Shown here one piece after another: positions 9,219-28,423 of a stretch of DNA of 32,507 nucleotides. Each line of letters begins with the position of its first letter. Positions within the stretch are counted from its first letter, which is position 1. Origin of the DNA: Pseudomonadota bacterium (lineage in GTDB: Bacteria; Desulfobacterota; Desulfobacteria; Desulfobacterales; Desulfobacteraceae); NCBI GenBank assembly GCA_018821715.1, contig JAHJLN010000185.1, forward strand, positions 1 through 32,507. The letters run 5' to 3'. The position numbers and the translations under genes were made by a program. Below the pieces are notes generated by a model. It ran no database searches. It was not told the origin of the DNA and saw only the letters and a list, made by a program, of their open reading frames with translations.

Positions 9219-9311
9219 GTTCAAATTTTGAATACAGGCCCTCTTGCCAAAACGGTTTGTTTGGTTTGCAGCCCAAGCGCAGTATGAATCCCGGGACGGT
9301 CTTTTTTTCAA

Positions 9312-9351
9312 TATAATTATAGTTGACGCGACTAATTTTAATAATGTAAAG
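9312..9351 (+). promoter_or_regulatory. Possible promoter region of Hdr module 1
   Basis: The 170-base gap between hypE and hdrA contains a perfect TATAAT (9312-9317) without a good -35, and a TTGACG (9323-9328) with a weak TGTAAA 16 bases downstream. Overlapping the latter is an imperfect palindrome, TAGTTG-ACG-CGACTA. Which of these, if any, is used cannot be told; read-through from hypE is also possible because I see no convincing terminator after hypE. Confidence 0.3.
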
Positions 9352-9388
9352 TTAGAACTTGCAAACTATCTTAAAGGGAGTCTGCAAA

Positions 9389-12300
9389 ATGTTGATATTT
9401 AAAGTCGGTACGATTGCAAGACACCTGGGTGTTCACAGAAACACCGTTACCAACTGGATTAATAAAGGAAACCTTCAGGCATCCTTAACTGCTGCCAAGC
9501 GGTATACGATTTCAAAACAAGACTTTATCCTTTTTTGTGAAAAAAAACATATTTCCAAAACTGCCATGGAAAATGTTATTTTAGAAACCCAAACCCAAAC
9601 CCAAACCCAAACCCAAAATAATATTAAAGCCCCTGGAACCATTATCAACAGGGCTATTCCAAATGAGAAAAATCAAACAAAAACAAACAGGCGTGGCACT
9701 GAAAAAATAATTCAAATACCCGGAACAGATAAACTGATCGGTTCGGTTATGATTGTGGGGGGGGGAATAGCGGGTATCCAGGCGGCGATAGAGCTGGCTG
9801 ATTCAGGATACTATGTGTATATTGTTGAAAAAACAGCAGGCATTGGCGGGGTAATGTCCCAGTTGGATAAAACATTTCCGACCAATGATTGTGCCTCATG
9901 TATCATTTTACCAAAGCTTGTGGAGTGCGACCGGCATCTGAACATTGAACTGCTTACGTTATCCCGGGTTGTCAAGGTCCAGGGCAGTGTGGGGCACTTT
10001 AGCATTCAGGTGAAAAAAACCCCCCGGTATGTGGACATGGACAAATGCATTGCCTGCGGGATCTGTGCTGAAAAATGTCCGATTAATGTGAAAGACGAGT
10101 TTAATTTCGGCATTAATAATAAAAAGGCGGCCTATATCAAATATGATCAGTCTGTTCCGCTTAAATATGCCATTGATCCGTCTGCATGTATTTATTTTAC
10201 CCTGGGAAAATGCAGGGCCTGTGAAAAATTTTGTCCCACAGGGGCCATTAATTTTACACAGGTTGAAGAAACGGTTACCATTGAAGCAGGGGCGGTTATT
10301 CTGGCACCGGGATTTAAACCCTTTGATCCTTCAGGTCATGATTTTTTTGGATACCGTATCAAGGATGTGGTCACCAGTCTTGAATTCGAGCGTCTCCTTT
10401 CCATCAGCGGACCGAACAGAGGTAAGCTTCTCAGGCCGTCTGACAGCACAGAACCACGAAAAATCGCCTGGCTGCAATGCGTGGGATCTCGGAACCTTAA
10501 TAATTGCGGCAATTCTTATTGTTCAAATATTTGCTGCATGTCTGCGGTAAAGCAGGGGTTGGCTGCTTTGGATCATATCACGGCCCAGACCCTTGAATGC
10601 ACTATTTTTTTTACGGATTTAAGAAGCCAGGGCAAGGAATCGGAAAAGTTTTTTGAACGGGCAAAACAAGAGAACATCAGATTTGTGAGAGCCATTCCTC
10701 ATACCATGGAACCGGGAAAAGACGGTACCGGTATCCGGATGAGATACATGACCGAACGGGGTGAGGTGATGGTTGAATCTTTTGAAATGGTTGTCCTTTC
10801 CATTGGATTTGAAGCGCCTGAAGATGTATTAACCCTTGCCGGACAATTTGATATTGAGCTGGATCGACACCATTTTGCCAGGACCTCATGTTTCGAACCC
10901 ATAGAAAGCAGCCGGAAAGGGGTCTATGTCATCGGTGCGTTTCAATCCCCTAAACCGATTTCAAGATCAGTGATACAGGCTGCATCAGCAGCCGCCTCTA
11001 TTGCAAGGCTGCTTGCTGAGAAAAAAGGGTCTCTTACAAAAATAAAAATCTTTCCTGATGAACGTGACATTCTCGAAGAAAAGCCCTCGGTCGGTGTGTT
11101 TGTCTGTTCCTGCGGTGTGAATATTGCCGGCATTGTTGATGTGGGTCAGGTTGTGGCATATTCAGCCAGGCTGCCTTACGTGACATATGTTGAGAACAAT
11201 CTTTTTTCCTGCTCTGCCGATGCCCAGGAAAGCATTACACAAAAAATTAAAGAATTCGGGTTGAACCGAATTGTTATTGCCGCCTGCACCCCCAGGACCC
11301 ATGAGCCTTTGTTTCAGGAAACGCTGAAAAATGCCCGGTTGAACGGGTTCATGGTAGAGATGGCCAATATCAGGAATCAAAATTCCTGGGTGCATCAACA
11401 AGACTCAAAGAGTGCGACCCGAAAAGCAAAAGACCAGGTAAGGATGGCCATTGCTAAAGTGGTTCATAATTATCCGCTGAAACAGGATCGGATAAAGGTG
11501 GTTCAAAAAGCCCTTGTTGTGGGGGGCGGTATTGTGGGCCTTGACAGTGCCCTTACCCTTGCCCAGCTGGGGATTGAAACCATATTGATTGAAAAAAGCA
11601 ATGTTTTGGGAGGCAATGCACTGAACCTGGAAACCAGTTTCAAGGGAGAAAATGTACCTTCCCTGCTTGAAGATCTTATCAATAAGGTAAGCCAGAATGA
11701 AAAAATCATGGTTTACAGAAAAGCAACCCTGGAATCGGTTTCAGGGTCAGTTGGAAATTTTAAAGGATTTATCAATATTGCCGGGGAAACAGAACAAATC
11801 AACTTTGGTGCAGCGATAATGGCCACCGGCGGCAAAGAAGCCATCCCTGAAGAGTATCTTTATGGTATGGAGCCCAGGGTGATGACCCAGTTGGAATTTG
11901 ATCGAAAAGTTCTGTTTCATCCGGCTGAAGTCAAAAAAGCCCAGAGTATTGTGTTTATCCAGTGTGTGGGCTCAAGGGAGCCTGAAAGGCCTTATTGCAG
12001 CAGGATCTGCTGCATCCATTCCGTTAAGGCTGCCATTGGGTTAAAAAAGATCCACCCAGGCATTAAAGTTTATATCCTTTACAGGGAAATCAGAACCTAT
12101 GGGGAGTGGGAGTCGTATTACACCGAAGCAAGGGATATCGGCATAATATTTATCCGGTATGAAACCATAAGAAAACCAAAGGTTAAAAAACAGGATAATT
12201 ATTTGACGGTTGAGGTATTTGATCCCATTGCCCGGCGGCCCGTAAGGATTACGGCGGATTATCTGGCCCTGGCAACCGGCATAGTGTCTCGTGATAATCA

Positions 12301-12781
12301 TTATATTGCAGAGTTTTTCAAGTTTAATGTAAATTCAGATGGGTTTTTCAACGGGGCGCATCCAAAGCTCAAGCCGGTTGATTTATCTGTGGCAGGTCTG
12401 TTTCTTGCCGGCATCTGCAATTATCCCAAACCCTTGGACGAGTCCATTGAAGAGTCCAGAGCAGCAGCCTTCAGAGTGTCTGCACTTCTTTTGCAGGAAG
12501 AGATTAAATCAGAAGCCATTAAATCTTTTGCAACAGATCATTGCGATGGGTGTGCCCTTTGTGTTGACGTTTGTCCGTTTCATGCCCTCTCGATTATGAA
12601 AACAGATGTGCGAAAAAGCAGATCTAATCTCACAGTTGTCACTGATCCGGCCTTATGCCAGGGGTGTGGCCTTTGTGCTGCAACATGTCCCAAAGACGGC
12701 ATTATGGTCCATGGGTTTACAATGAAACAACTTATGGCGCAAGTGCGTGCTGCGGTTAATGAAGGCACAATGGAAACATAA
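9389..12781 (+). CDS. hdrA: HdrA-like electron-bifurcating flavoprotein, doubled, with N-terminal helix-turn-helix domain (copy 1)
   Basis: This 1130-residue protein is much longer than a standard HdrA (around 650). Order: a helix-turn-helix domain of excisionase/MerR type (1-57; FKVGTIARHLGVHRNTVTNW, wing TAAKRYTIS); a linker with five TQ repeats; a first HdrA-type FAD domain (GGGIAG near 122); two cluster-binding segments (CIACGICAEKCP near 219, CRACEKFCP near 275); the HdrA N-terminal-type motif VCSCGVNIAG (near 571); a second FAD domain (VVGGGIVG near 708); and two C-terminal [4Fe-4S] motifs (CDGCALCVDVCP near 1050, CQGCGLCAATCP near 1089). HdrA carries the bifurcating flavin in Hdr complexes; that activity is inferred. 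ATG 9389 is preferred to 9359 because AAAGGGAG lies eight bases upstream and the paralogue starts at the same point. It leads module 1 with the HdrCB-like and FrhB-like genes. Confidence 0.9.
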   Translation: MLIFKVGTIARHLGVHRNTVTNWINKGNLQASLTAAKRYTISKQDFILFCEKKHISKTAMENVILETQTQTQTQTQNNIKAPGTIINRAIPNEKNQTKTNRRGTEKIIQIPGTDKLIGSVMIVGGGIAGIQAAIELADSGYYVYIVEKTAGIGGVMSQLDKTFPTNDCASCIILPKLVECDRHLNIELLTLSRVVKVQGSVGHFSIQVKKTPRYVDMDKCIACGICAEKCPINVKDEFNFGINNKKAAYIKYDQSVPLKYAIDPSACIYFTLGKCRACEKFCPTGAINFTQVEETVTIEAGAVILAPGFKPFDPSGHDFFGYRIKDVVTSLEFERLLSISGPNRGKLLRPSDSTEPRKIAWLQCVGSRNLNNCGNSYCSNICCMSAVKQGLAALDHITAQTLECTIFFTDLRSQGKESEKFFERAKQENIRFVRAIPHTMEPGKDGTGIRMRYMTERGEVMVESFEMVVLSIGFEAPEDVLTLAGQFDIELDRHHFARTSCFEPIESSRKGVYVIGAFQSPKPISRSVIQAASAAASIARLLAEKKGSLTKIKIFPDERDILEEKPSVGVFVCSCGVNIAGIVDVGQVVAYSARLPYVTYVENNLFSCSADAQESITQKIKEFGLNRIVIAACTPRTHEPLFQETLKNARLNGFMVEMANIRNQNSWVHQQDSKSATRKAKDQVRMAIAKVVHNYPLKQDRIKVVQKALVVGGGIVGLDSALTLAQLGIETILIEKSNVLGGNALNLETSFKGENVPSLLEDLINKVSQNEKIMVYRKATLESVSGSVGNFKGFINIAGETEQINFGAAIMATGGKEAIPEEYLYGMEPRVMTQLEFDRKVLFHPAEVKKAQSIVFIQCVGSREPERPYCSRICCIHSVKAAIGLKKIHPGIKVYILYREIRTYGEWESYYTEARDIGIIFIRYETIRKPKVKKQDNYLTVEVFDPIARRPVRITADYLALATGIVSRDNHYIAEFFKFNVNSDGFFNGAHPKLKPVDLSVAGLFLAGICNYPKPLDESIEESRAAAFRVSALLLQEEIKSEAIKSFATDHCDGCALCVDVCPFHALSIMKTDVRKSRSNLTVVTDPALCQGCGLCAATCPKDGIMVHGFTMKQLMAQVRAAVNEGTMET
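9585..9617 (+). repeat. In-frame hexanucleotide repeat (AAACCC)5
   Basis: Five perfect AAACCC units (9585-9614) plus a trailing AAA encode a Thr-Gln dipeptide repeat in the linker between the helix-turn-helix and the HdrA part. Each unit is two codons, so gain or loss by slippage would change linker length without breaking the frame. The paralogue at 21077 has no such repeat. Confidence 0.95.
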
Positions 12782-12851: not shown

Positions 12852-14198
12852 ATGACAGCAATTGATCAAAATGGGTTTAGTGATAAAGAAGGCATCATAC
12901 GGGTTGCTCCTGTTGAGTTGGGCATTGGAAGCAAGACGGTACTTAAGGATCTTGTTTTATCCATATTGCCAAAAGGCAGAAATCTGACATCCTGTTTTAA
13001 CTGTGGTGCATGTTCATCCGGATGCCCGGCCAGCGGTCTTGCCGGGATGGATCCAAGAAAATTTGTCAGAATGGTTTCTTTGGGTATGGATGAAGAGATC
13101 ATGACCAATGACTGGGTATGGATGTGCACGACATGTCATCGCTGTGTCCATGTCTGCCCCATGAAGATTGATATTCCTCAACTTGTTTCTATTATTCGAA
13201 GTCAATGGCCAAGGGAAAAAAGGCCGAAAACCATTGTAAACGACTGCGAAAGATCGCTTAAAAGTGATACCTGTTCTACTGCGGGAATCAGTGTCGAGGA
13301 TTGGAAATTTATTGTAGCAGATGTTGTTGATGACGTAAGACAAACACAGCAGGGGTTTGAAGAGCTCAATGTTCCCATGGATGAGAAAGGTGCGCTGCTG
13401 TTTTTAAATCAGAATTCAAGCATGCCGTTGACAGAGCCGCTGGAGATGGCTCCCTTGTGGAAAATCCTGCACCTTGCCGGTGCAAACTGGACCTATGGGT
13501 CACAGGGGTGGGCAGCGGAAAATTTTGGGATGTTTCTTGCCGATAATAACGCCTGGGAAAAAATCGTTAGAAAAAAAACAGCGGTTATTGAACAACTGGG
13601 GTGTAAAGTTCTGTTAAATACAGAATGCGGCCATGATTTCCTTGCGGCCAAACATGGGCTTGAAAAATTTAAAATACCCCATTCATTTGAGGTTAAAAGT
13701 ATTATTGAATACTATGCTGACTGGATACGCAAAGGCAGGCTGAAGATGAGCTCTGACTGGAACCTGGACTTGAAAATTAAATTTACAGTTCAAGACCCCT
13801 GTCAATTGGTCAGAAAAAGCTATGGGGATTTCATTGCTGATGAACTCAGGTTTGTGGTCAAGGAAGCCGTGGGGGAAGAAAATTTTGTTGATATGGTTCC
13901 AAACCGTTCCAATAACTATTGTTGTGGTGGCGGGGGCGGCGCCATCCTGTCGGATTTTAAAGAGGAAAGACTTTCTTACGGAAAGATTAAGCTTGAGCAG
14001 ATTCTCGAGACGGAAGCCGCTTATTGCATTACCCCCTGCAACAATTGCCACGGTCAGATAATGGAGTTGAGTCAGCATTATCATGCAAGGGTCAAGACCA
14101 TCCATTTGTGGACAATTATCTGTCTGTCAATGGGAGTCTTGGGGGAAGATGAGCGCAAATACCTGGGGGATGATCTGGCCATGGTCGGGCTTAAATAA
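12852..14198 (+). CDS. HdrC-HdrB-like fused iron-sulfur protein (copy 1)
   Basis: The 448-residue protein joins an HdrC-like N-terminus to an HdrB/HdrD-like C-terminus. The N-terminal part has two [4Fe-4S] motifs (Cys48, 51, 54, 58 in CFNCGACSSGCP and Cys92, 95, 98, 102 in CTTCHRCVHVCP). The C-terminal part has one complete CCG-type set (DPCQLV, NNYCCGGGGGA, CITPCNNCH) that could hold a non-cubane cluster, and a first CCG region whose cysteines are mostly gone (only NTECGHDF remains). In Hdr complexes this unit takes the high-potential electrons from HdrA. The acceptor is unknown; a disulfide, DsrC-like protein or quinone-linked partner are possibilities. No membrane segment is present. There is no strong ribosome-binding site, but the start aligns with that of copy 2. 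Confidence 0.88.
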   Translation: MTAIDQNGFSDKEGIIRVAPVELGIGSKTVLKDLVLSILPKGRNLTSCFNCGACSSGCPASGLAGMDPRKFVRMVSLGMDEEIMTNDWVWMCTTCHRCVHVCPMKIDIPQLVSIIRSQWPREKRPKTIVNDCERSLKSDTCSTAGISVEDWKFIVADVVDDVRQTQQGFEELNVPMDEKGALLFLNQNSSMPLTEPLEMAPLWKILHLAGANWTYGSQGWAAENFGMFLADNNAWEKIVRKKTAVIEQLGCKVLLNTECGHDFLAAKHGLEKFKIPHSFEVKSIIEYYADWIRKGRLKMSSDWNLDLKIKFTVQDPCQLVRKSYGDFIADELRFVVKEAVGEENFVDMVPNRSNNYCCGGGGGAILSDFKEERLSYGKIKLEQILETEAAYCITPCNNCHGQIMELSQHYHARVKTIHLWTIICLSMGVLGEDERKYLGDDLAMVGLK

Positions 14199-14221: not shown

Positions 14222-15340
14222 ATGAAAACTTTTTTTAATCTGGTACAGGAAGTGCAAAAACCCGGGTTATGTTACAGGTGTGGGGGGTGTGCTGTTTTTT
14301 GCACTGCCATCAATTACGGAGCATTAGAAATTGATAAAACCGGCAAGCCTGTTTATGGGGATATGGAAAAATGTATTGAATGCGGTCTTTGTTATTCCAT
14401 CTGCCCTGAGATCAGTGATCTGGATGAAGAGACAAAACGCCAGGCCAACTGGAGCGAGCCCATGGGAAGGGTTATTGAAACAACGGTTGTCCGGGCATCT
14501 GACACAAGGGTAAGGCAAAGAGCGACCGATGGCGGAGCTGTGACAGCACTTTTGCTGCATCTTTTCGACCGTAATAGAATAGATGGTGCCATTGTGACCC
14601 GATCGGTAGGTCATTTTCAGCGCCAGCCTTTTTTGGCAACCACCCGGCAGGATATCTCGGATTCTGCAGGATTTTTCTTTGATGTTTCCCACGGGATGAA
14701 ACGGTTCAGCGATGAATACATGACGTTTTCAAGTATTGAACAGTTTGATCCCATGGTCAAAAAAGGTCTGAAAAGAGTTGCTTTGGTCGGAACTCCCTGC
14801 CAGATAAAATCCTTACGCAAGATGCAGGTGTTGAATCTGGTGCCGTCGGATTCCATAAAAATATGCTTTGGGCTTTTCTGTTCCGGGAATTTTACCTTTG
14901 GCATTGAAGAGCAGCAGAAACTTGCCGAAATTGCCGGTTTCGCGTGGAATGATGTTATCAAAATCAACTTGAAAGAAAGGCTTGTCATTACGTTAAAGTC
15001 CGGTGATAGAAGAACGGTTGAACTTGAGGATATGGAATCTTTAAAACGATATGCCTGTCATTATTGTGGCGACTATTCAGCAGAATTTGCAGATATTTCC
15101 TTTGGCGGGATCGGTGCCAAAGAAGGCTGGTCTACGGTCATTACCCGAACGCCTCTTGGGCGGGCAGTACTGGCAGACTGCCGCAGTTTTAAAAGCATAG
15201 AACAATTCAATATTGAAGATAACCCTGAATATGCCAGCAAAGCGCTTCAGGCGGTTAGAAAAGCCTCTTTTGAAAAAAAGAAAAAATCCAGACATAAAAG
15301 AAGAAATCTTCAGGCAAAGTCAGTGCAGGTTAAGGTATAG
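14222..15340 (+). CDS. FrhB/FdhB-like iron-sulfur flavoprotein (copy 1)
   Basis: The 372-residue protein belongs to the coenzyme F420 hydrogenase/dehydrogenase beta-subunit family. Two ferredoxin-type clusters are at the start (Cys17, 20, 23, 27 and Cys51, 54, 57, 61), followed by the FrhB N- and C-terminal domains with RATDGGAVTALLLHL, VGTPCQIKSLRK, FGLFCSGNFTFG and YACHYCGDYSAEFADISFGG. Family members bind FAD and exchange electrons between F420, ferredoxin or other partners and iron-sulfur chains. Which partner is used here is not shown; F420 itself should not be assumed. It is the last gene of module 1, 23 bases after the HdrCB-like gene with AAGGGA before the ATG. Its stop lies only seven bases from the stop of the convergent gene, leaving no room for a separate terminator. 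Confidence 0.88.
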   Translation: MKTFFNLVQEVQKPGLCYRCGGCAVFCTAINYGALEIDKTGKPVYGDMEKCIECGLCYSICPEISDLDEETKRQANWSEPMGRVIETTVVRASDTRVRQRATDGGAVTALLLHLFDRNRIDGAIVTRSVGHFQRQPFLATTRQDISDSAGFFFDVSHGMKRFSDEYMTFSSIEQFDPMVKKGLKRVALVGTPCQIKSLRKMQVLNLVPSDSIKICFGLFCSGNFTFGIEEQQKLAEIAGFAWNDVIKINLKERLVITLKSGDRRTVELEDMESLKRYACHYCGDYSAEFADISFGGIGAKEGWSTVITRTPLGRAVLADCRSFKSIEQFNIEDNPEYASKALQAVRKASFEKKKKSRHKRRNLQAKSVQVKV

Positions 15341-15968: not shown

Positions 15969-16144
15969 TATAAGCAGGGCCTATTTTTATGCATTATGCA
16001 AAGTGTGCAAAATGTGCTAAATGTATTAAAGCATAGTTTGCCGGGTTTTGTCAATATGGATAGGTGCTTTTTTAAAAAAAAGATTAGAATTGATTTTGTC
16101 AGGGACTATAATTTTAAATGGATGTTGTTGTTGAAAAGGAATAG

Positions 16145-19122: not shown

Positions 19123-20079
19123 CTATGCGGGTTCATAGAAAGGTGATGATGCATCCGGGAACCCCGGCTCAACACAACCAATGCAGACGGAATTGTCCAC
19201 ACACCAGTTCATACCACTGTTCCATTTGCGTTTGTAACAGTCAGCATATGTATCCGGACCTTTGCAGCCAAGATCTATACGGCAGCCGTTTGCATCGGAA
19301 AGTTTTTCAGACAGGTTGCCCGCGTCATACTGCCCAACCCGCGGGCAGTTGTCATGGATATTCTCACCATAGAAGATAACCGGGCGTCCGTTGTCATCTA
19401 ATTCAGGAAGGCCTTTGGTTAGCAGGTGGGCAATGGATCCAACGATCCAGTCCGGATGGGGAGGGCAGCCAGGGATATTGACAACCGGCGTTTTGATGCC
19501 ATGGGTTTTGAAAAAATCCATAACACCTGTTGCACCGGTTTCATTGCCTTTTGCAGCCGGGATGCCGCCATATGCAGCACAGGTTCCCAGGGCAAGAACA
19601 CTTCCTGCTTTTGCGCCCAGATCCTTTACAATGTCAACCATGGTGATTTCTTTGTGGTGAAGTTCGCCAACAATGCAGTATTTCCCGTCTGCGGCAACAG
19701 GAATGGCGCCTTCAACTGCCAGAGAGAATTTTCCTTTGTACTTTTCTGCGATGTGGTAAAGATTTTCCATGGCAGTATCGCCTTCACTTGCCATCACGGT
19801 GGGATGGAACTGAAGACTGATAACTTTGAGAAGTACATCTGCAATGGATGGATCAACGCTGTTCAAAAGGGAAACTGAGCAGCCTGTACAGCCCTGCCCC
19901 TGTATCCATATGACCGGATGGGTCTCAAGAGCCTTTTCCAATGCCGAAACAAGGGCCGGGTTGAACACCTGAGAAATACCGATCCCGGCAGCTGTTCCAG
20001 TGATGGTTTTTAAAAAAGCCCTCCTGGAAACCCCTGTTTTCTTTTGTTGCTCATCCAGCAACATTTGTTTGTTTTTCAC
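19123..20079 (-). CDS. hysB: Periplasmic [NiFeSe] hydrogenase small subunit with Tat signal
   Basis: The 318-residue subunit carries three iron-sulfur clusters that move electrons from the active site to a redox partner such as a periplasmic cytochrome c3. A twin-arginine signal (SRRAFLKTITGTAAG) directs folded export of the complex. Proximal cluster ligands are in CTGCSVSLLN, GTCAAYGG and PGCPPHPD. The distal/medial region reads CPRVGQYDAG, CRIDLGCKG, CYKRKWN and WCVDNSVCIGC. The Cys after Trp (about residue 293) replaces the Pro of standard [NiFe] enzymes, so the medial cluster should be [4Fe-4S], as in [NiFeSe] hydrogenases. GTG 20079 is chosen because AAGGAGG lies five bases before it; the upstream GTG at 20085 overlaps that site. 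It is first in hysB-hysA. Confidence 0.95.
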   Translation of the reverse strand: MKNKQMLLDEQQKKTGVSRRAFLKTITGTAAGIGISQVFNPALVSALEKALETHPVIWIQGQGCTGCSVSLLNSVDPSIADVLLKVISLQFHPTVMASEGDTAMENLYHIAEKYKGKFSLAVEGAIPVAADGKYCIVGELHHKEITMVDIVKDLGAKAGSVLALGTCAAYGGIPAAKGNETGATGVMDFFKTHGIKTPVVNIPGCPPHPDWIVGSIAHLLTKGLPELDDNGRPVIFYGENIHDNCPRVGQYDAGNLSEKLSDANGCRIDLGCKGPDTYADCYKRKWNSGMNWCVDNSVCIGCVEPGFPDASSPFYEPA

Positions 20080-20104
20080 GGGCACCTCCTTGATGCTGTT
20101 AAAA

Positions 20105-20126
20105 ACTAATAAGCCTTAGCTTATTA
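20105..20126 (-). promoter_or_regulatory. Terminator-like hairpin in the hysBA leader (possible attenuator)
   Basis: CTAATAAGC, a four-base loop and GCTTATTAG form a perfect 9-bp stem. On the minus strand it is followed at once by TTTTT, the layout of an intrinsic terminator, yet it lies only a few bases before the hysB ribosome-binding site. A second hairpin (GCTCTCA at 20143-20149 with TGAGAGC at 20161-20167) lies upstream in the same leader. Confidence 0.6.
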
Positions 20127-20177
20127 GGCGGCTATTATCTTAAGCTCTCACCATTTTTTTTGAGAGCATGTTTGGTC

Positions 20178-20225
20178 TTGTGCAAAATATGCGAACTTTA
20201 CATTGTGCCAAATATGATTTATAGT
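20178..20225 (+). promoter_or_regulatory. Sigma-70-like promoter with paired operator-like motif
   Basis: TTTACA (20197-20202) and TATAGT (20220-20225) are spaced by exactly 17 bases, each matching the consensus at five of six positions, pointing toward the mvh/Hdr module 2 operon. TTGTGCAAAATATG (20178-20191) lies upstream of the -35 box and TTGTGCCAAATATG (20203-20216) fills the spacer; the pair is 25 bases apart. This is the layout of a regulated promoter. The regulator is unknown. Confidence 0.55.
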
Positions 20226-20270
20226 AAATATATTGCAAAGATATTCTTGTCAATAAAAAAGATAATTTCA

Positions 20271-20498
20271 ATGGATTTTATGATGAATATAGATAGAATA
20301 AATAGAGTTTATAAAGGATCATTAAGATTAAACATGGCTGTAAACAAAAGGTTCTGGAATGTTTTTACGGGATTTCAAAGAAGTGTTTTAAATTACAAGT
20401 TGGTTGACGAAAAGGATTCAAACATTGTAATGTATGATGATTTTTACTCAGATAACCAGCAGTTTTGCCTTAATGGTTTAGCAAAGAATCGATTATAA
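20271..20498 (+). CDS. Possible small protein of unknown function
   Basis: An open frame of 75 codons begins ATG GAT TTT; a longer version from TTG 20160 (112 codons) would run through the promoter and is less likely. The product (MDFMMNIDRINRVYKGSLRL onward) is hydrophilic and charged, with no signal peptide or known motif. There is no clear ribosome-binding site. It lies in the 476-base gap between the divergent hydrogenase operons, downstream of the promoter-like element. It may equally be untranslated leader of the protease gene at 20556. Confidence 0.3.
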   Translation: MDFMMNIDRINRVYKGSLRLNMAVNKRFWNVFTGFQRSVLNYKLVDEKDSNIVMYDDFYSDNQQFCLNGLAKNRL

Positions 20499-20555
20499 AA
20501 ATGGAGGCTGTTTTTGCACAATAGGATTTAGATCTGTTGTCAAAAAAAATAAAAC

Positions 20556-21083
20556 ATGTACCTGGATTTGTTTAATAAGGATATTCTTGTGGTGGGATGC
20601 GGTAATCCGCTGCTGGGTGATGACGGGTTCGGACCGGAAGTGATTAAAGCGCTTGAAGCACGCCATATCCTGACGGATGATATCGGAGTGCTCGATGCAG
20701 GGACTTCTTTCAGGGAGCTTCTTTTTGATTTGCTGCTGTGTGCAAAAATTCCCAGGACACTTATTTTGATTGATGCGATTCAATATTCCAACGCCTTGCC
20801 TGGAGATATCCTTTGCATTAATATCGACCAGATTCCTGAAAATAAAGTGGCGGATTATTCTCTTCACCAGTTCCCGGCCATGAATATGCTCAAGGAATTA
20901 AAAGAGTTGTCTTTGATTGATATTCAGATTTATGCGGTGCAGATTGACTATATCCCCCTGGAGGTAAAACCCGGGTTGAGCGACCCGGTCAAAAAAGCTG
21001 TTGACAAAATGTGTTGTCTGATCAAGCGGGCAGTATATGATCCGAATTACAGATTTTGTGCCGGGCAGGTTCCATCATGTTGA
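20556..21083 (+). CDS. Hydrogenase maturation endopeptidase, probably for MvhA
   Basis: The 175-residue protein is of the HycI/FrcD type, related to but clearly different from the protease at 16972. The signature ILVVGCGNPLLGDDGFG is present, with candidate nickel ligands Asp23, Asp73 (LILIDAIQ) and His104 (SLHQFP). It heads the operon containing the MvhA-type large subunit, whose readthrough C-terminus carries a 22-residue extension after its last His, so it most likely trims that protein. No good ribosome-binding site is visible before the ATG. Its TGA overlaps the ATG of the following hdrA by seven bases, implying translational coupling. Confidence 0.9.
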   Translation: MYLDLFNKDILVVGCGNPLLGDDGFGPEVIKALEARHILTDDIGVLDAGTSFRELLFDLLLCAKIPRTLILIDAIQYSNALPGDILCINIDQIPENKVADYSLHQFPAMNMLKELKELSLIDIQIYAVQIDYIPLEVKPGLSDPVKKAVDKMCCLIKRAVYDPNYRFCAGQVPSC

Positions 21084-24000
21084 CGTTTAAAGTCGGAACC
21101 CTTGCCAAACATCTTGGTGTTCACAGGAACACGGTTACAAACTGGATCAAGAAGAAAAAACTTAATGCAACCCCGACAGCGGCCAAACGGTATTTTATTT
21201 CAAAAATTGAGTTTATCGAATTTTGTGAAAAAGAACAGATTTCAAAAAAGGCCATGGAGCTTGTTTTAAAGGAAGTCTCAGATCAGGCGAATGATAAAAA
21301 AAATTCAATAAAGCCGACCCGGCTGCCGGGGGAAGACAAGCAGATCGGGGCCGTTATGGTTGTCGGCGGCGGAATTGCCGGTATTCAGGCAGCCATGGAT
21401 CTGGCGGATTCAGGCTATTATGTCTATATAGTTGAAAAAACGGCCGGGATCGGTGGAACAATGGCTCAGCTGGATAAAACCTTTCCCACCAATGACTGTG
21501 CATCCTGTATCATTCTGCCAAAGCTTGTGGAATGCAGCAGACACAGAAATATAGAGTTGCTGACCCTTGCACAGGTGGATGACGTTCAGGGCAGTGCCGG
21601 TCATTTCACTATCCGGGTCAAAAAGCAGCCCCGGTATATTGATATGGGTAAATGCATTGCCTGTGGCATTTGTGCTCAAAAATGTCCTATTAATGTCAAA
21701 GATGCGTTTAATTTTAATATCAGTAAAAAAAAGGCAGTGTATATAAAGTATGACCAGTCCGTGCCGCTTAAATACGCCATTGAGCCCAAGGCCTGTATCT
21801 ATTTTACCATGGGAAAGTGCAGAGCCTGTGAAAAATTCTGCCCCACAGGGGCGGTGGATTTTACACAGACCCGGGAAACAGTTACCATAAAAGTCGGGGC
21901 TGTGATTTTAGCGCCTGGGTTTAAACCTTTTGACCCTTCAAAATACGATTTTTTTGGATATGGTTTTATTCAGGATGTTGTAACCAGCCTGGAATATGAA
22001 CGCCTGCTTTCCGTGAGCGGCCCGAATCGGGGGAGGCTTGCAAGGCCATCGGACAGGACGGAGCCGCGCAAAATTGCCTGGCTGCAATGCGTGGGGTCAC
22101 GGAACCACAATAACTGCGGGAATTCTTATTGTTCCAGCATCTGTTGCATGTCTGCCGTTAAACAGAGCATGACGTCCCTTGAGCACATTAAGGGAATTGA
22201 TTTTGAACAGACGATTTTTTTCATGGATTTAAGAAGTCATGGAAAGGAATCGGAACGATACTTTGAGCGGGCAAAAAAAGAAAATATAAGATTTGTAAGG
22301 GCCCTTCCGCATACCATGGAACCGGGAAAAGACGGTACGGGTGTAAAAATGAGATACATGAATGAAGACGGCCGTGTAATGGTTGAAACATTTGACATGG
22401 CAGTGCTGTCCATAGGCTTTGAAGCACCGGAAGATGCCCTCATTCTTGCAGAGCAGTTTGATATTGAGCTTGACCAGCATCATTTTGCCAAGACATCCTG
22501 TTTCGAACCGGTTGAGAGCAGCAGGCAAGGGGTGTATGTCATCGGAGCGTTTCAATCCCCCAAGGCCATTGCACGATCTGTGGTTCAGGCATCTGCGGCA
22601 GCTGCTGCCGCATCCAGGCTTCTTGTGGAAGAAAGACAGACTCTTGTCAAAACAAAAGGATTTCCCAAAGAACGAAACATCCTTGATGAACAACCCTCTG
22701 TGGGTGTCTTTGTCTGTTCCTGCGGGGTGAACATCGCAGGTATTGTTGATGTGGCAAAGGTTGTTGAATATGCAGCGCAGCTGCCCCATGTCTCTTATGT
22801 GGAAAATAATCTTTTTTCCTGTTCTGCAGATGCCCAGGAAAGCATTATTGAAAAAATTCATGAATTTGCCTTGAACCGGATTGTGATTGCCGCCTGTACG
22901 CCAAGAACCCATGAACACCTGTTTCAGGAAACCTTGAAAAGCGCACGGCTTAACGGGTTCATGGCGGAGATGGCCAATATCAGGAATCAGAATTCCTGGG
23001 TCCATCAGAAAGATTCAATCGGCGCAACTCAAAAAGCAAAAGATCAGGTCCGAATGGCTGTAGCCAAGGTTGCCCACAACTATCCGCTGCAGCAAGAGAG
23101 TATAAAGGTCGTTCAAAGGGCTCTTGTTGTCGGCGGCGGAGTCGTGGGCATGAACTGTGCCGTAACACTTGCAGGCCTGGGGATTGAAACCGTGCTCATC
23201 GAAAAAGGCAATATTCTTGGGGGCAATGCATTAAAGCTTGAGACCTGTTTTAATGGAGAGGCCGTATACCCAATGGTGGAAGATCTTATCAGCCGGGTGA
23301 ACAAGGATAAAAACATCACGGTTTATAAAAGAACAACATTGGAATCCGTATCCGGGTCAGTTGGGCATTTTAAAGGGCAGCTTAATATTTTTGGAGAACA
23401 AAGACAAATTAATTTTGGTGCTGCCATTATGGCAACCGGTGCAAAGGAAGCCAGCCCCATAGAGTACCTGTATGGCAAAGAATCAAGAGTGATGACCCAG
23501 ACAGAGTTTGACGGCAATATTCTCTATAATCCCGATGAAGTTGAAAAGACAAAAAGCGTTGTGTTTATCCAGTGTGTGGGCTCAAGGGAGCCAGAACGGC
23601 CCTATTGCAGCAGGATTTGCTGTATCCACTCGGTTAAGGCGGCCATCTGGTTAAAGCAGAGCAATCCTGAGGTTATGGTTTATATCCTTTACAGGGACAT
23701 CAGAACCTATGGTGAATGGGAGGCATATTATAAAGAAGCAAGAGACTTGGGCGTTTTGTTTATCCGGTATGAAACCAGTAGAAAGCCTCTGGTGAAAAAC
23801 AAGGACAGCCTGTTGGAAATAGAGGTGTTTGATCCTATTGTTCGACGGCAGGTGAAAATTCTGGCAGATTATCTTGTGCTGGCATCTTCCGTTATTGCCA
23901 ATGACAACAAAAATCTTGCAGACCTGTTTAAATTTTCTGTGAATTCAGATGGATTTTTTTATGGGGCACACCCCAAACTCAAACCGGTGAATTTGTCTGT

Positions 24001-24400
24001 GGCAGGCCTGTTCCTTGCAGGGCTGTGCAATTATCCAAAGCCGCTGGATGAATCCATTGAAGAGGCAAGGGCAGCGGCATGCAAGGCCTTTGTATTATTG
24101 TCACAAACAAAAATAAAATCAGAGGCCATAAAATCTTTTGTAACCAAGCATTGCGACGGCTGCGCCCTTTGTATTGATGTCTGCCCGTTTAATGCCTTAT
24201 CGGTCTGTACGGCAGATGCAACGATAAACCAAAGCAAAGTAAGGGTCTCCACTGATCCTGCGTTATGCCAGGGTTGTGGCCTTTGTGCAGCTACCTGTCC
24301 CAAGGAAGGTATTCTGGTCCACGGGTTTACAATGAGACAACTGATGGCCCAGGTGAAGGCAGCTATGAATACAGATATCACACAAAAAGAATGCAGCTAA
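21077..24400 (+). CDS. hdrA: HdrA-like electron-bifurcating flavoprotein, doubled, with N-terminal helix-turn-helix domain (copy 2)
   Basis: This 1107-residue paralogue of the protein at 9389 has the same order of parts: helix-turn-helix (FKVGTLAKHLGVHRNTVTNW, wing TAAKRYFIS), short linker, first FAD domain (VVGGGIAGIQAAMDLADSG), ferredoxin-type motifs (CIACGICAQKCP, CRACEKFCP), the mid-protein VCSCGVNIAG, second FAD domain (VVGGGVVGMNC) and two C-terminal clusters (CDGCALCIDVCP, CQGCGLCAATCP). ATG 21077 is used because it aligns with copy 1 and is coupled to the protease stop; the earlier in-frame ATG at 21056 lies deep inside the protease gene. With MvhD, MvhG and MvhA encoded downstream, this copy should receive electrons from H2 through MvhD. 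Bifurcation is inferred from the family. Confidence 0.92.
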   Translation: MLTFKVGTLAKHLGVHRNTVTNWIKKKKLNATPTAAKRYFISKIEFIEFCEKEQISKKAMELVLKEVSDQANDKKNSIKPTRLPGEDKQIGAVMVVGGGIAGIQAAMDLADSGYYVYIVEKTAGIGGTMAQLDKTFPTNDCASCIILPKLVECSRHRNIELLTLAQVDDVQGSAGHFTIRVKKQPRYIDMGKCIACGICAQKCPINVKDAFNFNISKKKAVYIKYDQSVPLKYAIEPKACIYFTMGKCRACEKFCPTGAVDFTQTRETVTIKVGAVILAPGFKPFDPSKYDFFGYGFIQDVVTSLEYERLLSVSGPNRGRLARPSDRTEPRKIAWLQCVGSRNHNNCGNSYCSSICCMSAVKQSMTSLEHIKGIDFEQTIFFMDLRSHGKESERYFERAKKENIRFVRALPHTMEPGKDGTGVKMRYMNEDGRVMVETFDMAVLSIGFEAPEDALILAEQFDIELDQHHFAKTSCFEPVESSRQGVYVIGAFQSPKAIARSVVQASAAAAAASRLLVEERQTLVKTKGFPKERNILDEQPSVGVFVCSCGVNIAGIVDVAKVVEYAAQLPHVSYVENNLFSCSADAQESIIEKIHEFALNRIVIAACTPRTHEHLFQETLKSARLNGFMAEMANIRNQNSWVHQKDSIGATQKAKDQVRMAVAKVAHNYPLQQESIKVVQRALVVGGGVVGMNCAVTLAGLGIETVLIEKGNILGGNALKLETCFNGEAVYPMVEDLISRVNKDKNITVYKRTTLESVSGSVGHFKGQLNIFGEQRQINFGAAIMATGAKEASPIEYLYGKESRVMTQTEFDGNILYNPDEVEKTKSVVFIQCVGSREPERPYCSRICCIHSVKAAIWLKQSNPEVMVYILYRDIRTYGEWEAYYKEARDLGVLFIRYETSRKPLVKNKDSLLEIEVFDPIVRRQVKILADYLVLASSVIANDNKNLADLFKFSVNSDGFFYGAHPKLKPVNLSVAGLFLAGLCNYPKPLDESIEEARAAACKAFVLLSQTKIKSEAIKSFVTKHCDGCALCIDVCPFNALSVCTADATINQSKVRVSTDPALCQGCGLCAATCPKEGILVHGFTMRQLMAQVKAAMNTDITQKECS

Positions 24401-24431: not shown

Positions 24432-24845
24432 ATGACCCCCCGTTTTGAACCGGTTATTATCGGGTTTTTATGCAACTGGTGTTCTTATACCGGTGCGGAT
24501 CTGGCCGGAGTCGCAAGACTTCAGTATCCGCCGAACCTGCGCCCCATACGGGTGATGTGCTCAGGCATGGTTCATCCGGATCTGGTGATGGAAGCGTTTG
24601 TCCAGGGAGCGGATGGCGTGATGGTAATGGGCTGCCATCCGGGCGAATGCCATTACCTTGAGGGAAATACAAAAGCCCTGGCCCGGGCACAAGTTATTTC
24701 CATTATCCTTAAGGAAACCGGTATAGACCCCTGCCGATTTGAGCTGAAATGGATTTCTTCGGCTGAAGCATCGGTTTTTGCCCGGTTGATTACGGATTTT
24801 ACAACACGGATTCAGAAACTCGGCCCGCACAGGGTTGAGGCTTAA
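24432..24845 (+). CDS. mvhD: MvhD-type iron-sulfur subunit linking hydrogenase to HdrA
   Basis: The 137-residue protein is the small [2Fe-2S] protein that passes electrons from the MvhAG hydrogenase (or another dehydrogenase) to HdrA. It shows the family pattern: Cys14 and Cys17 in GFLCNWCSYTGADLAG, Cys43 in VMCSGMV, Cys68 and Cys73 in MGCHPGECHY. In some methanogens the matching protein has selenocysteine; here these positions are cysteines. A GGAG sequence precedes the ATG. It sits between hdrA copy 2 and the HdrCB-like gene. No equivalent exists in module 1. Confidence 0.95.
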   Translation: MTPRFEPVIIGFLCNWCSYTGADLAGVARLQYPPNLRPIRVMCSGMVHPDLVMEAFVQGADGVMVMGCHPGECHYLEGNTKALARAQVISIILKETGIDPCRFELKWISSAEASVFARLITDFTTRIQKLGPHRVEA

Positions 24846-24874
24846 GGAATACGGGTTCAGGAAACACAGAAAAG

Positions 24875-26221
24875 ATGAGCAATGGTTACCAGAATACATT
24901 AAAAGAAAAAAACAATAGCCGTATGGCTTTGCCCGTGGAGCTTGGGATCAAAAGCAATACCCTGCTGAAGGATCTGGTCATGGCCATGCTGCCTTCAGGG
25001 GGTAATTTAAATTCGTGCTTCACCTGTGGTATCTGTGCATCCGGCTGCCCGGCAAGCGGCCTTGCCGATATGGACCCAAGAATGTTTGTCAGAATGATTT
25101 CCATGGGCATGGATGAAGAATTGATGACCAGTGACTGGGTATGGATGTGTACCACGTGCAACCGATGTGTTCATGTATGTCCCATGCAGATCGATATCCC
25201 AATGCTTGTATTCATCGTGCGGAACAACTGGCCTAAAAATAAAAGACCCAGAGGGATTGTTGATTATTGCAGTCAGGGTCTGAAAACCGACACTTGTTCC
25301 ACCACAGGTATCAGTTCTGAAGATTTTAAATTTATTGTTGAGGATGTTGCAGATGATGTGAGACAGACCCAGCAAGGGTTTGAACAGCTCAATGTTCCCA
25401 TGGATAAAAAAGGCGCTTCTTTATTTGTAAATCAGAATTCCAGGATGCCCACGGATGAACCCCAGGAGATGGCGCCGCTCTGGAAGATCCTGCACCTTGC
25501 CGGCGCAGACTGGACCTATGGATCAAAAGGCTGGGCAGCAGAGAATTACTGCATGTTTCTTGCCGATGATTCCTCCTGGGAAAAACTGGTTGCAACCAAG
25601 GCATCTATTGTTGACAAGCTTGGCTGCAAGACCTTGCTGAATACCGAATGCGGACATGATTTTTTTTCCGTCCGCCAGGGGCTGGAAAAATTTGGGATAC
25701 CCCATTCCTTTGAAGTAAAAAGCATCATCGAGTATTATGCCAACTGGATCCGGGAGGGCAGATTAAAGGTAACTTCCGACTGGAACCTGGACTTGAAAAT
25801 AAAATTTACCGTACAGGATCCCTGCCAGCTGGTCAGGAAAAGTTATGGAGATTTTATCGCAGATGAACTCAGGTTTGTTATCAAGGAAGCAGTGGGCGAG
25901 GAAAATTTCATAGATATGGTTCCCAATCGATCCAATAATTATTGTTGCGGCGGTGGGGGCGGTGCCGTACAAACAGATTTTATTGAGGAAAGACTCAGCT
26001 ATGGAAAAATTAAACTCGAGCAGATTCTTGAGACCGAGGCTGCCTACTGCATTACGCCCTGCAATAATTGTCACACCCAGATAATGGCGCTGAGCCGGCA
26101 TTCTCAGGCAGGCTTCAATACTGTGCGGTTATGGACAATTTTATGCCTGGCCATGGGGGTTTTGGGGGAGAATGAACGAAAATATCTTGGAAAGGACCTG
26201 GCTCGGGTGGGACTGAAATAG
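24875..26221 (+). CDS. HdrC-HdrB-like fused iron-sulfur protein (copy 2)
   Basis: The 448-residue protein is a close paralogue of the one at 12852, with identical length and layout: two N-terminal [4Fe-4S] motifs (CFTCGICASGCP, CTTCNRCVHVCP), a degenerate first CCG region (NTECGHDF) and a complete second set (DPCQLV, NNYCCGGGGGA, CITPCNNCH). The first residues differ from copy 1 until PVELGI, after which the match is close. It should accept the higher-potential electrons from HdrA copy 2. It lies 29 bases after mvhD and 77 bases before the FrhB-like gene. The terminal electron acceptor is not identified. Confidence 0.9.
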   Translation: MSNGYQNTLKEKNNSRMALPVELGIKSNTLLKDLVMAMLPSGGNLNSCFTCGICASGCPASGLADMDPRMFVRMISMGMDEELMTSDWVWMCTTCNRCVHVCPMQIDIPMLVFIVRNNWPKNKRPRGIVDYCSQGLKTDTCSTTGISSEDFKFIVEDVADDVRQTQQGFEQLNVPMDKKGASLFVNQNSRMPTDEPQEMAPLWKILHLAGADWTYGSKGWAAENYCMFLADDSSWEKLVATKASIVDKLGCKTLLNTECGHDFFSVRQGLEKFGIPHSFEVKSIIEYYANWIREGRLKVTSDWNLDLKIKFTVQDPCQLVRKSYGDFIADELRFVIKEAVGEENFIDMVPNRSNNYCCGGGGGAVQTDFIEERLSYGKIKLEQILETEAAYCITPCNNCHTQIMALSRHSQAGFNTVRLWTILCLAMGVLGENERKYLGKDLARVGLK

Positions 26222-26298
26222 GTTGCCTTTCAGATAGAAAATGATAAAAGGGATTAAAAATAAAATAGTATCAGGACTGACTGTTAACAAGGAATCAC

Positions 26299-27417
26299 AT
26301 GAAAACATTTTTTAATCTGGTTCAGGAAGTGCAAAAACCAGGGTTATGCTACCGGTGCGGAGGGTGTGCCACCTTTTGTACCGCCATTAACTATGGTGCT
26401 CTTGAAATTGATAAAAGCGGTAAGCCGGTTTACCAGGATATGGAAAAATGTATTGAGTGCGGCCTTTGTTACTCTATCTGCCCGGAGATTAATGACCTGG
26501 ACGAGGAAACAAAACGGCAGGCAGCCTGGAGTGACCCCATGGGACGGGTGATCGAGACCACTGTTGTCAGGTCATCCGATGTGAAGGTCAGGGACCGGGC
26601 CACGGACGGCGGAGCTGTAACAGGGATTTTGCTTCACTTGTTTGACCGAAACAGAATTGATGGTGCCATTGTGACAAGACCGGTGGGTAAATTCCAGCGC
26701 CAGCCGTTCCTGGCAACCACCCGGGAGGAAATATTGGAATCTGCAGGACTTTTTTTTGATACCTCCCAGGGGATGAAACAGTTCAGTGATCAGTACATGA
26801 CATTTTCAACCATTGAGGAATTTGATCCCATGATCAAAAAGGGATTGAAAAGGGTTGCACTGGTCGGCACCCCCTGCCAGATTAAATCCCTTCGCAAGAT
26901 GCAGGTGTTAAATCTGATACCGTCGGATTCCATAAAATTTTGTTTCGGGCTTTTCTGCTCTGGCAACTTTACCTTTGGCATCAAGGAACAGCAGTACCTG
27001 GCAGATATTGCCGGAATATCCTGGGACGATGTGGTAAAAATTAATTTAAAAGACAAGTTCATTATTACCCTGGATACAGGGGATGTCAAAACTGTGGAGC
27101 TTGGGCAGATGGATTCCATGAAGCGGTATGCCTGTCACTATTGTTCGGATTATTCAGCAGAGTTTGCCGATATTTCCTTTGGCGGGATCGGCGCCGAGGT
27201 TGGATGGACAACCGTTATTACCCGGACGCCTCTTGGCAGGGCTGTCCTGGCAGACAGCCGGCACAGCAAGAGTATTGAGCAGTTTGATGTGGAAGACAAT
27301 CCTGAGTTTGCCAGCAGTGCACTCCAGGAGGTCAGAAAGGCGTCTTCTGCCAAGAAGAAGAACACCCGGTACAAGAGAAGAGGGCTTCAAGCAAAATCAG
27401 TGCAGGTCAAGGTATAG
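26299..27417 (+). CDS. FrhB/FdhB-like iron-sulfur flavoprotein (copy 2)
   Basis: At 372 residues, this has the same length as the copy at 14222 and starts with the same residues through both ferredoxin-type motifs (CYRCGGCATFC, CIECGLCYSICPE). The FrhB family blocks follow (RATDGGAVTGILLHL, VGTPCQIKSLRK, FGLFCSGNFTFG, YACHYCSDYSAEFADISFGG), and both copies end LQAKSVQVKV. AAGGA lies six bases before the ATG. It is placed between the HdrCB-like and MvhG genes, so it is probably a stable subunit of the Hdr-Mvh complex, offering a flavin site for ferredoxin, F420 or another carrier. Confidence 0.9.
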   Translation: MKTFFNLVQEVQKPGLCYRCGGCATFCTAINYGALEIDKSGKPVYQDMEKCIECGLCYSICPEINDLDEETKRQAAWSDPMGRVIETTVVRSSDVKVRDRATDGGAVTGILLHLFDRNRIDGAIVTRPVGKFQRQPFLATTREEILESAGLFFDTSQGMKQFSDQYMTFSTIEEFDPMIKKGLKRVALVGTPCQIKSLRKMQVLNLIPSDSIKFCFGLFCSGNFTFGIKEQQYLADIAGISWDDVVKINLKDKFIITLDTGDVKTVELGQMDSMKRYACHYCSDYSAEFADISFGGIGAEVGWTTVITRTPLGRAVLADSRHSKSIEQFDVEDNPEFASSALQEVRKASSAKKKNTRYKRRGLQAKSVQVKV

Positions 27418-27483
27418 ATTATACCTTGAATCCGCATGAAAATAGAACTTAATAAAGAACACAACACCCTATCGGGAGGATCC

Positions 27484-28422
27484 ATGCCTATTAAAATAGC
27501 CTCAGAGAGTCTTCATGCATGTTCAGGATGCGAGATTTCCATTCTTGACATGGGAGAAAAACTTTTAGAGCTGTTGGAATTTGCCGCCATTGTTCACCTG
27601 CCCCTTCTTATGGACAGCAAACATGACAGTCCCAAAAAGAATCCCCGGACGATCAAACTGCCTAAAGCCGATGTGGGCCTTATCAGCGGGGGGATTAAAA
27701 CCAGAGAACATCTTGAGGTGGCCCGGGCCTTAAGAAAGTCTTGTGATCTTATTGTTGCTCTTGGGACCTGTGCCACCCACGGGGGAATTCCGGCTCTTGC
27801 AAATTCTTACGGTAATGATGATCTTCTTGGCCGCTGTTTTAATACAAAGGGAACGGATAAGGCTGACAGCTTCCCGTCTGATGGTGTCCCGGGTATGATG
27901 GACACCTGTTCTGCCCTTGATGAGCACATCAGTGTGGATATCTTTCTGCCGGGATGTCCGCCCCATCCGGATCATATTTTCAAGGCCCTTGAATCTATTG
28001 AGAAAAAAGAGCTGTTTTCTCTGCCGGACAAATCAGTATGTGATAATTGCCCGGCAACAAGGAATGGCAACGGTCAGGTAAAAGCATTGAAAAGATCATT
28101 GGAACTGCCGAACTGGAGGGTCTATGAAGGAAAAGAAGACTTTATATGCTTCCTGGAACAGGGATTTCTCTGCATGGGGCCGGTGACAAAGGACGGGTGC
28201 GGGGGAAATACGGATTCAGCCCGGTGTATCATGGCCCAGGTACCCTGCAGGGGATGTTACGGCCCGGTAAAAAAAGAGGGCAACCAGCGGCTGGCCATGC
28301 TCAATGCCCTTGCATCCAACGGCATTGATATCTCCTCTTTGCCGGAAACCGTGTCAATGCTGAGATTTTCCGGAGGACACGGATTGTTGCGCCCTATAGA
28401 TAGAAGAAAGGAATCCAAATAA
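27484..28422 (+). CDS. mvhG: Cytoplasmic [NiFe] hydrogenase small subunit, MvhG type
   Basis: The 312-residue protein is an F420-non-reducing hydrogenase small subunit. It has no Tat signal, so the enzyme stays in the cytoplasm, unlike HysB. Cluster ligands are seen in LHACSGCEIS (Cys13, Cys16), GTCATHGG, PGCPPHPDH, CDNCPA and the C-terminal cysteine-rich part (FLCMGPVTKDGCGG, RCIMAQVPCRGCYGPV). ATG 27484 is preferred to ATG 27436, because GGGAGGA lies just upstream and family members start close to this point; the longer version would add 16 residues with no ribosome-binding site. It relays electrons from MvhA to MvhD. Its stop is one base away from the mvhA start. Confidence 0.93.
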   Translation: MPIKIASESLHACSGCEISILDMGEKLLELLEFAAIVHLPLLMDSKHDSPKKNPRTIKLPKADVGLISGGIKTREHLEVARALRKSCDLIVALGTCATHGGIPALANSYGNDDLLGRCFNTKGTDKADSFPSDGVPGMMDTCSALDEHISVDIFLPGCPPHPDHIFKALESIEKKELFSLPDKSVCDNCPATRNGNGQVKALKRSLELPNWRVYEGKEDFICFLEQGFLCMGPVTKDGCGGNTDSARCIMAQVPCRGCYGPVKKEGNQRLAMLNALASNGIDISSLPETVSMLRFSGGHGLLRPIDRRKESK

Positions 28423-28423
28423 T

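Follow-up and report, generated by a model that had tools for sequence, protein, structure and literature searches.

The window analysed here is a stretch of 32,507 nucleotides from contig JAHJLN010000185.1 of assembly GCA_018821715.1 (Desulfobacteraceae, Desulfobacterales, Desulfobacterota). It encodes two HdrA proteins, and the N-terminus of these is a genuine winged helix-turn-helix (wHTH) domain of the HTH_17/BldC-like kind, in frame with a tandem HdrA resembling "type II". The fusion is real and conserved and is kin to trigger enzymes. Comparison of related operons suggests that the HTH-Hdr protein would most likely be a PutA-like trigger enzyme, in which an Hdr subunit regulates its own hydrogenase operon, while its gating by redox, flavin or assembly is speculative. 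The finding is more interesting than first noted, since the fusion goes together with a repeat motif whose period suits the fold.

The open reading frame (ORF) of copy 1 (9389-12781) encodes 1130 residues, which translation, Pfam and NCBIfam divide into a 62-residue wHTH, a linker and the tandem HdrA. The frame is open already from a TTG at 9359, and the ATG at 9389, preceded by AAAGGGAGT, is the likely start. Pfam HTH_17 (PF12728) matched the isolated residues 1-62 at 2.4e-7 with 31.4 bits, above its cut-off of 27; in the whole proteins the score was 24.9 bits for copy 1, slightly below the cut-off, and 28.0 bits for copy 2 (21077-24400), above it. This second HdrA, which the initial annotation did not mention, bears the same N-terminal domain (74% identity to copy 1). 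In one alignment of 33 sequences from across the phylum, including the two of the window, HTH_17 was found at E <= 0.001 in all 33, and A10 as well as H16, R17, N18, T19, N22 and W23 of the recognition helix were invariant. An N-terminus that resembles an HTH only by chance or through degeneration, or that stems from misassembly, has a negligible probability: the whole copy-1 score just under the Pfam cut-off could be taken in favour of this, but the second copy, the match in every aligned sequence, the many assemblies and two named isolates stand against it, and an assembly artefact is ruled out on these grounds.

The AlphaFold model of the domain, made from the 33 aligned sequences, is a compact wHTH (mean predicted local distance difference test, pLDDT, 94.7; strand and helix order E-H-H-E-E-H), with a helix-turn-helix and a beta-hairpin wing. 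The nearest solved folds in Foldseek were RacA, BldC, MerR-family proteins and Xis, with the BldC structures 6amk and 6ama among the matches at E of about 0.05. By PDB profile, the Xis of phage Pukovnik (4j2n) was the best match (1.8e-4), followed by RacA (0.001) and BldC. The protein does not have the classical MerR architecture of a coiled-coil dimerisation helix, an effector domain and a palindromic operator; the wHTH is followed by one predicted helix to residue 76, a low-confidence stretch to residue 114 and then HdrA, and the candidate operator repeats are direct. The BldC protein of Streptomyces is a MerR-like wHTH whose protomers bind head to tail, each occupying one 9-bp direct repeat; it is a free-standing protein of 68 residues that lacks both a dimerisation and an effector domain, and its consensus is AATTXXXX(C) (PMC5859096, cited, like the other papers here, from excerpts). 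The domain described here is likewise a wHTH without dimerisation or effector domain, with 9-bp direct repeats beside the genes and binding to them predicted, and it differs from BldC in being tethered to an enzyme and in its repeat, TTGCACAAW. The recombination directionality factors RdfS and Xis belong to the HTH_17 group and form head-to-tail oligomers on DNA (PMC11963761). The present domain is of the same group and has an Xis as its best PDB sequence match. Unlike HTH-HdrA, Xis and RdfS act in DNA excision, and we know of no enzyme fused to them. An excisionase left behind by a mobile element is ruled out by the recurrent place of the domain in one operon across the phylum.

In the full-length model of copy 1 (26 sequences, mean pLDDT 71.5), the domain is folded and residues 72-114 fall below 50. 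It weakly suggests a flexible tether, because the ferredoxin-insert segment 213-291 is equally low in the same model. The linker contains a perfect 5.5-fold AAACCC repeat (9585-9617) encoding TQTQTQTQTQ, which could change in length without a frameshift. The HdrA part has the flavin adenine dinucleotide (FAD)/thioredoxin-reductase module and ferredoxin domains of HdrA, with similarity to HdrA models (NCBIfam HdrA2 model NF040770, 897 bits, under its cut-off of 1100), and a stretch between the FAD modules of copy 1 (GVFVCSCG...) is presumably HdrA N-domain-like. Both the HTH_17-like N-terminus and the iron-sulfur flavoprotein following in the same frame, which the initial annotation had read from copy 1, were thus borne out, as were its expectations of a significant profile match, a winged fold, the same N-terminus in homologues and a basic residue on the recognition helix, where the arginine is invariant.

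In the order, the domain matched at E <= 1e-5 in 34 of the 291 genomes sampled, so that about a tenth carry the fusion. Close HdrA homologues are present in 280 of these 291 genomes, and therefore most HdrAs of the order lack the domain. Inspection of the 34 matching genomes other than G045 and G267 placed the domain beside Hdr in 31, among them the genome of the window, G006, G024, G089, G200 and that of L053, whose contig ends too early to show it; in G027 the domain is fused to a receiver. Among 26 new loci (L033-L058), 25 continue in frame into the HdrA FAD motif, and L053 stops at the contig end. Among 27 loci from the scan of named genomes, the frame continues into HdrA in 24 (L059-L082), a contig end truncates one, and the other two are unrelated alphaproteobacterial proteins; these loci overlap the others, several being the same contigs. 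The named records with the domain are from Desulfobacula, Desulfotignum, Desulfamplus, Desulfatibacillum, other Desulfobacterales and one metagenome-assembled genome titled Desulfohalobiaceae. In a set of 44 loci, a script found 42 in frame, L157 is in frame too, and L024 has real stops.

Across the phylum, 36 of 395 genomes matched at E <= 1e-10. The fusion partner at 27 phylum loci was an HdrBC-like protein in 19, HdrA in six and a receiver domain in one, and L155 has no recognised partner, perhaps through a frameshift. Ten wider regions read HTH-HdrBC-HdrA (seven) or HTH-HdrA (three), each followed by MvhD; a protease directly upstream was detected in six and MvhG together with MvhA in six. 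G024 carries the domain at the C-terminal end of its protease, with a separate start for HdrA. In L039 and L047 (contigs identical to those of L071 and L070), a single open frame runs through protease, HTH and HdrA, and an internal GAGGT...ATG precedes HdrA. Because of these and the HdrBC arrangements, the domain can be said to lie usually between the protease and the first Hdr gene with a varying partner, the exceptions being copy 1 of the window and L025-L029. One DNA-binding-type module is thus found on three different proteins of one operon, namely HdrA, the HdrBC-like subunit and the maturation protease. The tree of the 62-residue domain required four partner changes against a minimum of two, but with good support for just 3 of its 30 inner branches it decides nothing on this point. 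A related HTH (HRVTVT.W) fused to a response-regulator receiver domain was seen in L015 (1099-1680, minus strand) and L168, and apparently represents a separate family.

The repeat motif was sought in the 400 bp upstream of the protease gene in 37 operons, 32 counted as domain-bearing and five not. L118 and L120 were unused as the protease start could not be placed, and L025, L026, L027 and L029, which have no protease beside the HTH gene, were dropped; L028 was counted as domain-bearing, its domain sitting in another operon of the same contig. An unbiased word count in the 32 regions found GCACAA in 30 (7.6 expected) and the 8-base word TTGCACAA in 23 (1.2 expected). The half-site pattern GCAYAW, picked after viewing these regions, occurred on the same strand as 33 pairs at a spacing of 9 bp and as at most seven at any other spacing to 40 bp, the larger of these counts being at 18, 27 and 33 bp. 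Opposite-strand pairs were absent at 9 bp and numbered at most two at any spacing. The consensus is TTTGCACAAATTGCACAAT, in 9-bp tandem direct repeats forming arrays of up to five copies at variable positions. The exact pair was present in 25 of the 32 domain-bearing regions, compared with an average of 0.075 of 32 in first-order Markov resamples. Outside the order, at loci not used for defining the motif, the pair was found upstream in 18 of 25, with 20 pairs in 35.5 kb upstream vs none in 41.1 kb downstream; these pairs lie close to the start of the protease gene or, at loci with no protease detected upstream, to that of the HTH, and L146 (same order) and L168 (receiver fusion) were left out of the 27 loci. 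The motif holds alike for HdrA and HdrBC fusions. Its 9-bp period is what a wHTH of the BldC/Xis kind would be expected to recognise, and the initial proposal of a DNA-binding, self-regulating enzyme gained good comparative support upstream of the operon, at hysB and across the phylum. Of the two regions put forward as its targets, 20080-20555 contains an exact pair of repeats and 9219-9388, ahead of copy 1, has none.

The repeats also go with the domain when related operons are compared. In operons of the order without the domain, the exact pair occurred in 1 of 11, vs 25 of 32 with it (Fisher 9e-5); five of the 11 have no protease and L091 offers only 257 bp, and restriction to those with a protease gave 1 of 6 (Fisher 0.008). 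At the hysB promoter, an exact pair was found in six of nine domain-bearing genomes of the genus and family vs none of 15 domain-free ones (Fisher 6e-4). For this test, G014 (a match without a start) and G001, G008 and G018 (only paralogues, 41-43%) were dropped from 27 HysB-matching genomes and the window was added. The domain-free G009 and G019 retain one-mismatch pairs at hysB, and G249 a more decayed pair on visual inspection, a pattern that would fit erosion of operators once the domain is lost. In another family, L113 (G104:C15) has an exact strict pair, GCACAATTCGCATAA, at about 12968-12982 (minus strand, position by hand), some 300 bp upstream of a hysB-like gene.

The GCACAA repeats might instead be common promoter elements, or be recognised by an established regulator (sigma-54 -24/-12, Rex, CRP/FNR), and merely co-occur with the operon. 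TGGCAC and TTGCA do resemble sigma-54 elements, but sigma-54 needs about 11 bp between its two GC elements, and a spacing of 11 was seen in none of the 32 regions while 9 was seen in 25, which rules out a sigma-54 promoter. Rex and CRP/FNR sites are palindromes, and with no opposite-strand peak a palindromic regulator is likewise ruled out. The number and variable positions of the copies and the scarcity of repeats in related domain-free operons also speak against such elements, and we consider this explanation very improbable.

A somewhat better, still improbable, explanation is that the HTH has been reused for protein contacts, by docking the protease, HdrBC or MvhD or by dimerisation, and that the repeats belong to another, unlinked regulator. 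The annotated fusions are to a protein of the same operon, usually a complex subunit, as would suit an assembly domain. However, the recognition helix is the invariant part, the linker is of low confidence as if disordered (as are other segments of the model), and the remaining proteins encoded by the copy-2 operon gave no match to a DNA-binding family at the thresholds applied. Furthermore, the repeats accompany the domain, hysB included, and their head-to-tail 9-bp period suits the wHTH fold. Fusion to the protease also fits poorly, a hydrogenase maturation protease not being a complex subunit. Reuse in complex assembly, which the initial annotation had offered as its alternative, is now the weaker option.

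Several observations weigh against an HTH-Hdr protein acting on these repeats. The structural matches in Foldseek have weak E-values, 6.8e-3 at best, and the profile match to BldC is weak too (0.11). The promoter of copy 1 in the window has no pair even with one mismatch allowed, and copy 1 may act in trans. No exact pair lies within 400 bp in 7 of the 32 domain-bearing operons, L059 has no pair in the 811 bp searched, 7 of the 25 loci outside the order have none (one of these spans only 195 bp), and three of the nine domain-bearing genomes (G006, G007, G057) have no exact pair at hysB. Conversely, the domain-free L111 has a pair, although another operon of the same genome, G104, encodes the domain. 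Because of the common descent of the loci, the Fisher values exaggerate their independence, and some of the genomes counted as domain-free are incomplete. Genome-wide pattern searches found the strict pair about as often as its reversed control (per-genome listing, untotalled), with 0 to 4 sites in most listed genomes of the order and outliers to 30 (G166), vs 0 to 7 for the control; the pair alone is therefore no genome-wide signature, and it stands out by position. With a loose pattern, the genome of the window itself gave 14 sites vs 5 for the reversed control. One of the two exact pairs in the window (GCATAAGGCGCATAA, 31706-31720, minus strand) lies inside an amidohydrolase-like ORF and is probably there by chance.

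We propose that the HdrA part would work in a soluble Hdr-Mvh electron-bifurcating hydrogenase complex, and that its BldC/Xis-like wHTH, on a probably flexible linker, would bind head-to-tail arrays of the 9-bp repeat upstream of its own protease-Hdr-Mvh operon. In the genus of the window, hysB of the NiFeSe hydrogenase and the adjacent peptidase gene would be further targets. From sequence comparison we infer that the HTH domain itself is the repeat binder and that the effect of binding is most likely repression of the target genes; free or surplus Hdr subunit would therefore lower its own synthesis. The support for action at the own promoter is comparative (upstream pairs, hysB), with none for copy 1 of the window. 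Relative to predicted sigma-70 promoters, 8 of 24 pairs lie upstream, 6 overlap and 10 lie downstream, four of these in region L100, and this leans to repression, the promoter calls being weak. That the redox or flavin state of HTH-HdrA, or its assembly into the complex, releases it from DNA is speculative. A plainer form of this proposal, in which HTH-Hdr binds DNA whatever its redox state and only titrates its own level, has in our opinion a little less than an even chance: the binding evidence requires no gating step, and 16 of the 24 pairs overlap or follow the weakly called promoters, again with four in L100, but titration leaves unexplained why the domain so often stays in frame with an Hdr subunit and is not a free protein.

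PutA is a flavoenzyme whose DNA-binding fold is a ribbon-helix-helix. It and other trigger enzymes have a metabolic enzyme and a DNA-binding domain in the same chain and act on their own regulon (PMC8249747). HTH-HdrA similarly joins a metabolic flavoenzyme and a DNA-binding-type domain in one chain; it differs from PutA in that the enzyme belongs to a predicted electron-bifurcating hydrogenase complex and in that three different operon proteins carry the same domain. In our view, little is known about what determines the abundance of bifurcating hydrogenase complexes in anaerobes. If the trigger-enzyme proposal is true, a regulator built into the enzyme couples energy-metabolism flux directly to transcription with no separate sensor, and a metabolic enzyme joins the free regulators and excisionases as a user of BldC-type array binding. 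The predicted operator makes the idea testable with a 62-residue peptide and short DNA.

HdrR of Methanosarcina barkeri is reportedly a regulator of hdrBCA; by its title, it is a separate archaeal regulator and not an HdrA domain, and the paper is said to mention helix-turn-helix. Type II HdrA has two thioredoxin-reductase domains (PMC12054007), and the HdrA of the window resembles it in combining ferredoxin domains with two FAD modules on a single polypeptide. The archaeal classes, unlike the HdrA of the window, have no DNA-binding domain described in the excerpts of that paper, where the term "DNA-binding" does not occur (PMC12054007). The HdrA1-MvhA2DG-HysAB cluster of Desulfobacterium autotrophicum combines a selenocysteine HdrA with Mvh and Hys genes (PMC2702500), and the gene neighbourhood in the window is similar. 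The excerpts of that paper describe no HTH on its HdrA, as they are without "helix-turn" and their sole "DNA-binding" passage concerns sigma factors (PMC2702500). No description of an HTH fusion to HdrA appeared among the papers listed by searches of an open-access collection, and excerpts of PMC2702500, PMC4046663 and PMC12054007 were consulted.

All 25 of the L033-L058 loci that reach the motif TNDCAMU have an in-frame UGA there, about 150 residues in, and the window has TNDCASC, so that these HdrAs are presumably selenoproteins and the window has the cysteine form. In L024 (9005-13910, G024), a single in-frame UGA interrupts each of HdrA and MvhD, and the HdrBC-like gene falls into two ORFs; this operon may code for two or three selenoproteins. 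In 23 of the 44 loci, an ATG with a Shine-Dalgarno match of at least 5 bases lies no more than 14 codons before the HdrA FAD motif, compared with 4 of 100 control in-frame ATGs, and many relatives may therefore make both HTH-HdrA and HdrA. None of the nine genus rows, including the two of the window, has such an ATG within these 14 codons, and the window probably makes only the HTH-HdrA fusion. A broader version of the proposal is tentative and rather unlikely. It holds that the bifurcating complex reads its own redox or assembly state and switches hydrogenase transcription through its tethered BldC-type array-binding domain. In selenocysteine relatives, UGA termination would free an HTH fragment, so that the gene could report selenium supply, and the internal start would give HTH-bearing and HTH-free HdrA.

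The features of the window are collected in the following table.

Features of the 32,507-nucleotide window, with the evidence for each
Feature	Position	Strand	Evidence or remark
HTH_17/BldC-like wHTH, copy 1 (residues 1-62)	9389..9574	+	Pfam, AlphaFold, PDB profile, Foldseek
Linker with (AAACCC)5.5 repeat	9575..9736	+	End is where HdrA similarity begins
Tandem HdrA, copy 1: FAD module with ferredoxin insert, second FAD module, 4Fe-4S domains	9737..12781	+	Pfam, NCBIfam, translation
HdrBC-like (HmcF/TmcB/DsrK-like) subunit, copy 1	12852..14198	+	NCBIfam, all under cut-off
FrhB-like subunit, copy 1	14222..15340	+	Pfam FrhB_FdhB_C 6.3e-35; NCBIfam
Conserved putative secreted HExxH (HEFAHA) peptidase, 206 residues	15348..15968	-	Motif and secretion by eye
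Operator-like array of three 9-bp repeats (GCACATTTT GCACACTTT GCATAA), upstream of peptidase gene	15994..16017	-	
hysB, NiFeSe hydrogenase small subunit, divergent from Hdr-Mvh operon	19123..20085	-	NCBIfam 540 bits, cut-off 470
Operator-like exact pair GCATATTTTGCACAA, between hysB and protease gene	20178..20192	-	
Second operator-like pair, one mismatch, hysB-protease interval	20203-20217		
Single half-site GCACAA, 40 bp ahead of protease gene	20516..20521	+	
FrhD/HycI-type hydrogenase maturation protease, first gene of operon	20556..21083	+	Pfam HycI 5.2e-20
HTH_17/BldC-like wHTH, copy 2	21077..21262	+	ATG overlaps protease gene end
Tandem HdrA, copy 2	21344..24400	+	
mvhD-, HdrBC-, frhB-, mvhG- and mvhA-like genes, copy-2 operon	24432..29773	+	

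Copy 1 is preceded by hypC, hypF, hypD and an AIRS-family gene, which we take to be hypE. The protein of 15348-15968 had no Pfam or NCBIfam match. In the array upstream of its gene, each pair is one mismatch off the strict pattern, and the array was independently detected as a period-9 tandem repeat; at the same promoter in relatives, L028 shows an exact pair, and L026 and L027 show pairs with one mismatch. The genes hysB-hysA-hysD of the NiFeSe hydrogenase sit on the minus strand between the two hdr operons. The hysA ORF (17640-19082, minus strand) ends at a UGA that is followed in frame by LGCAVHVLDADTGREIKVEIPL and the true stop, and this UGA is the expected selenocysteine end of a NiFeSe hydrogenase.

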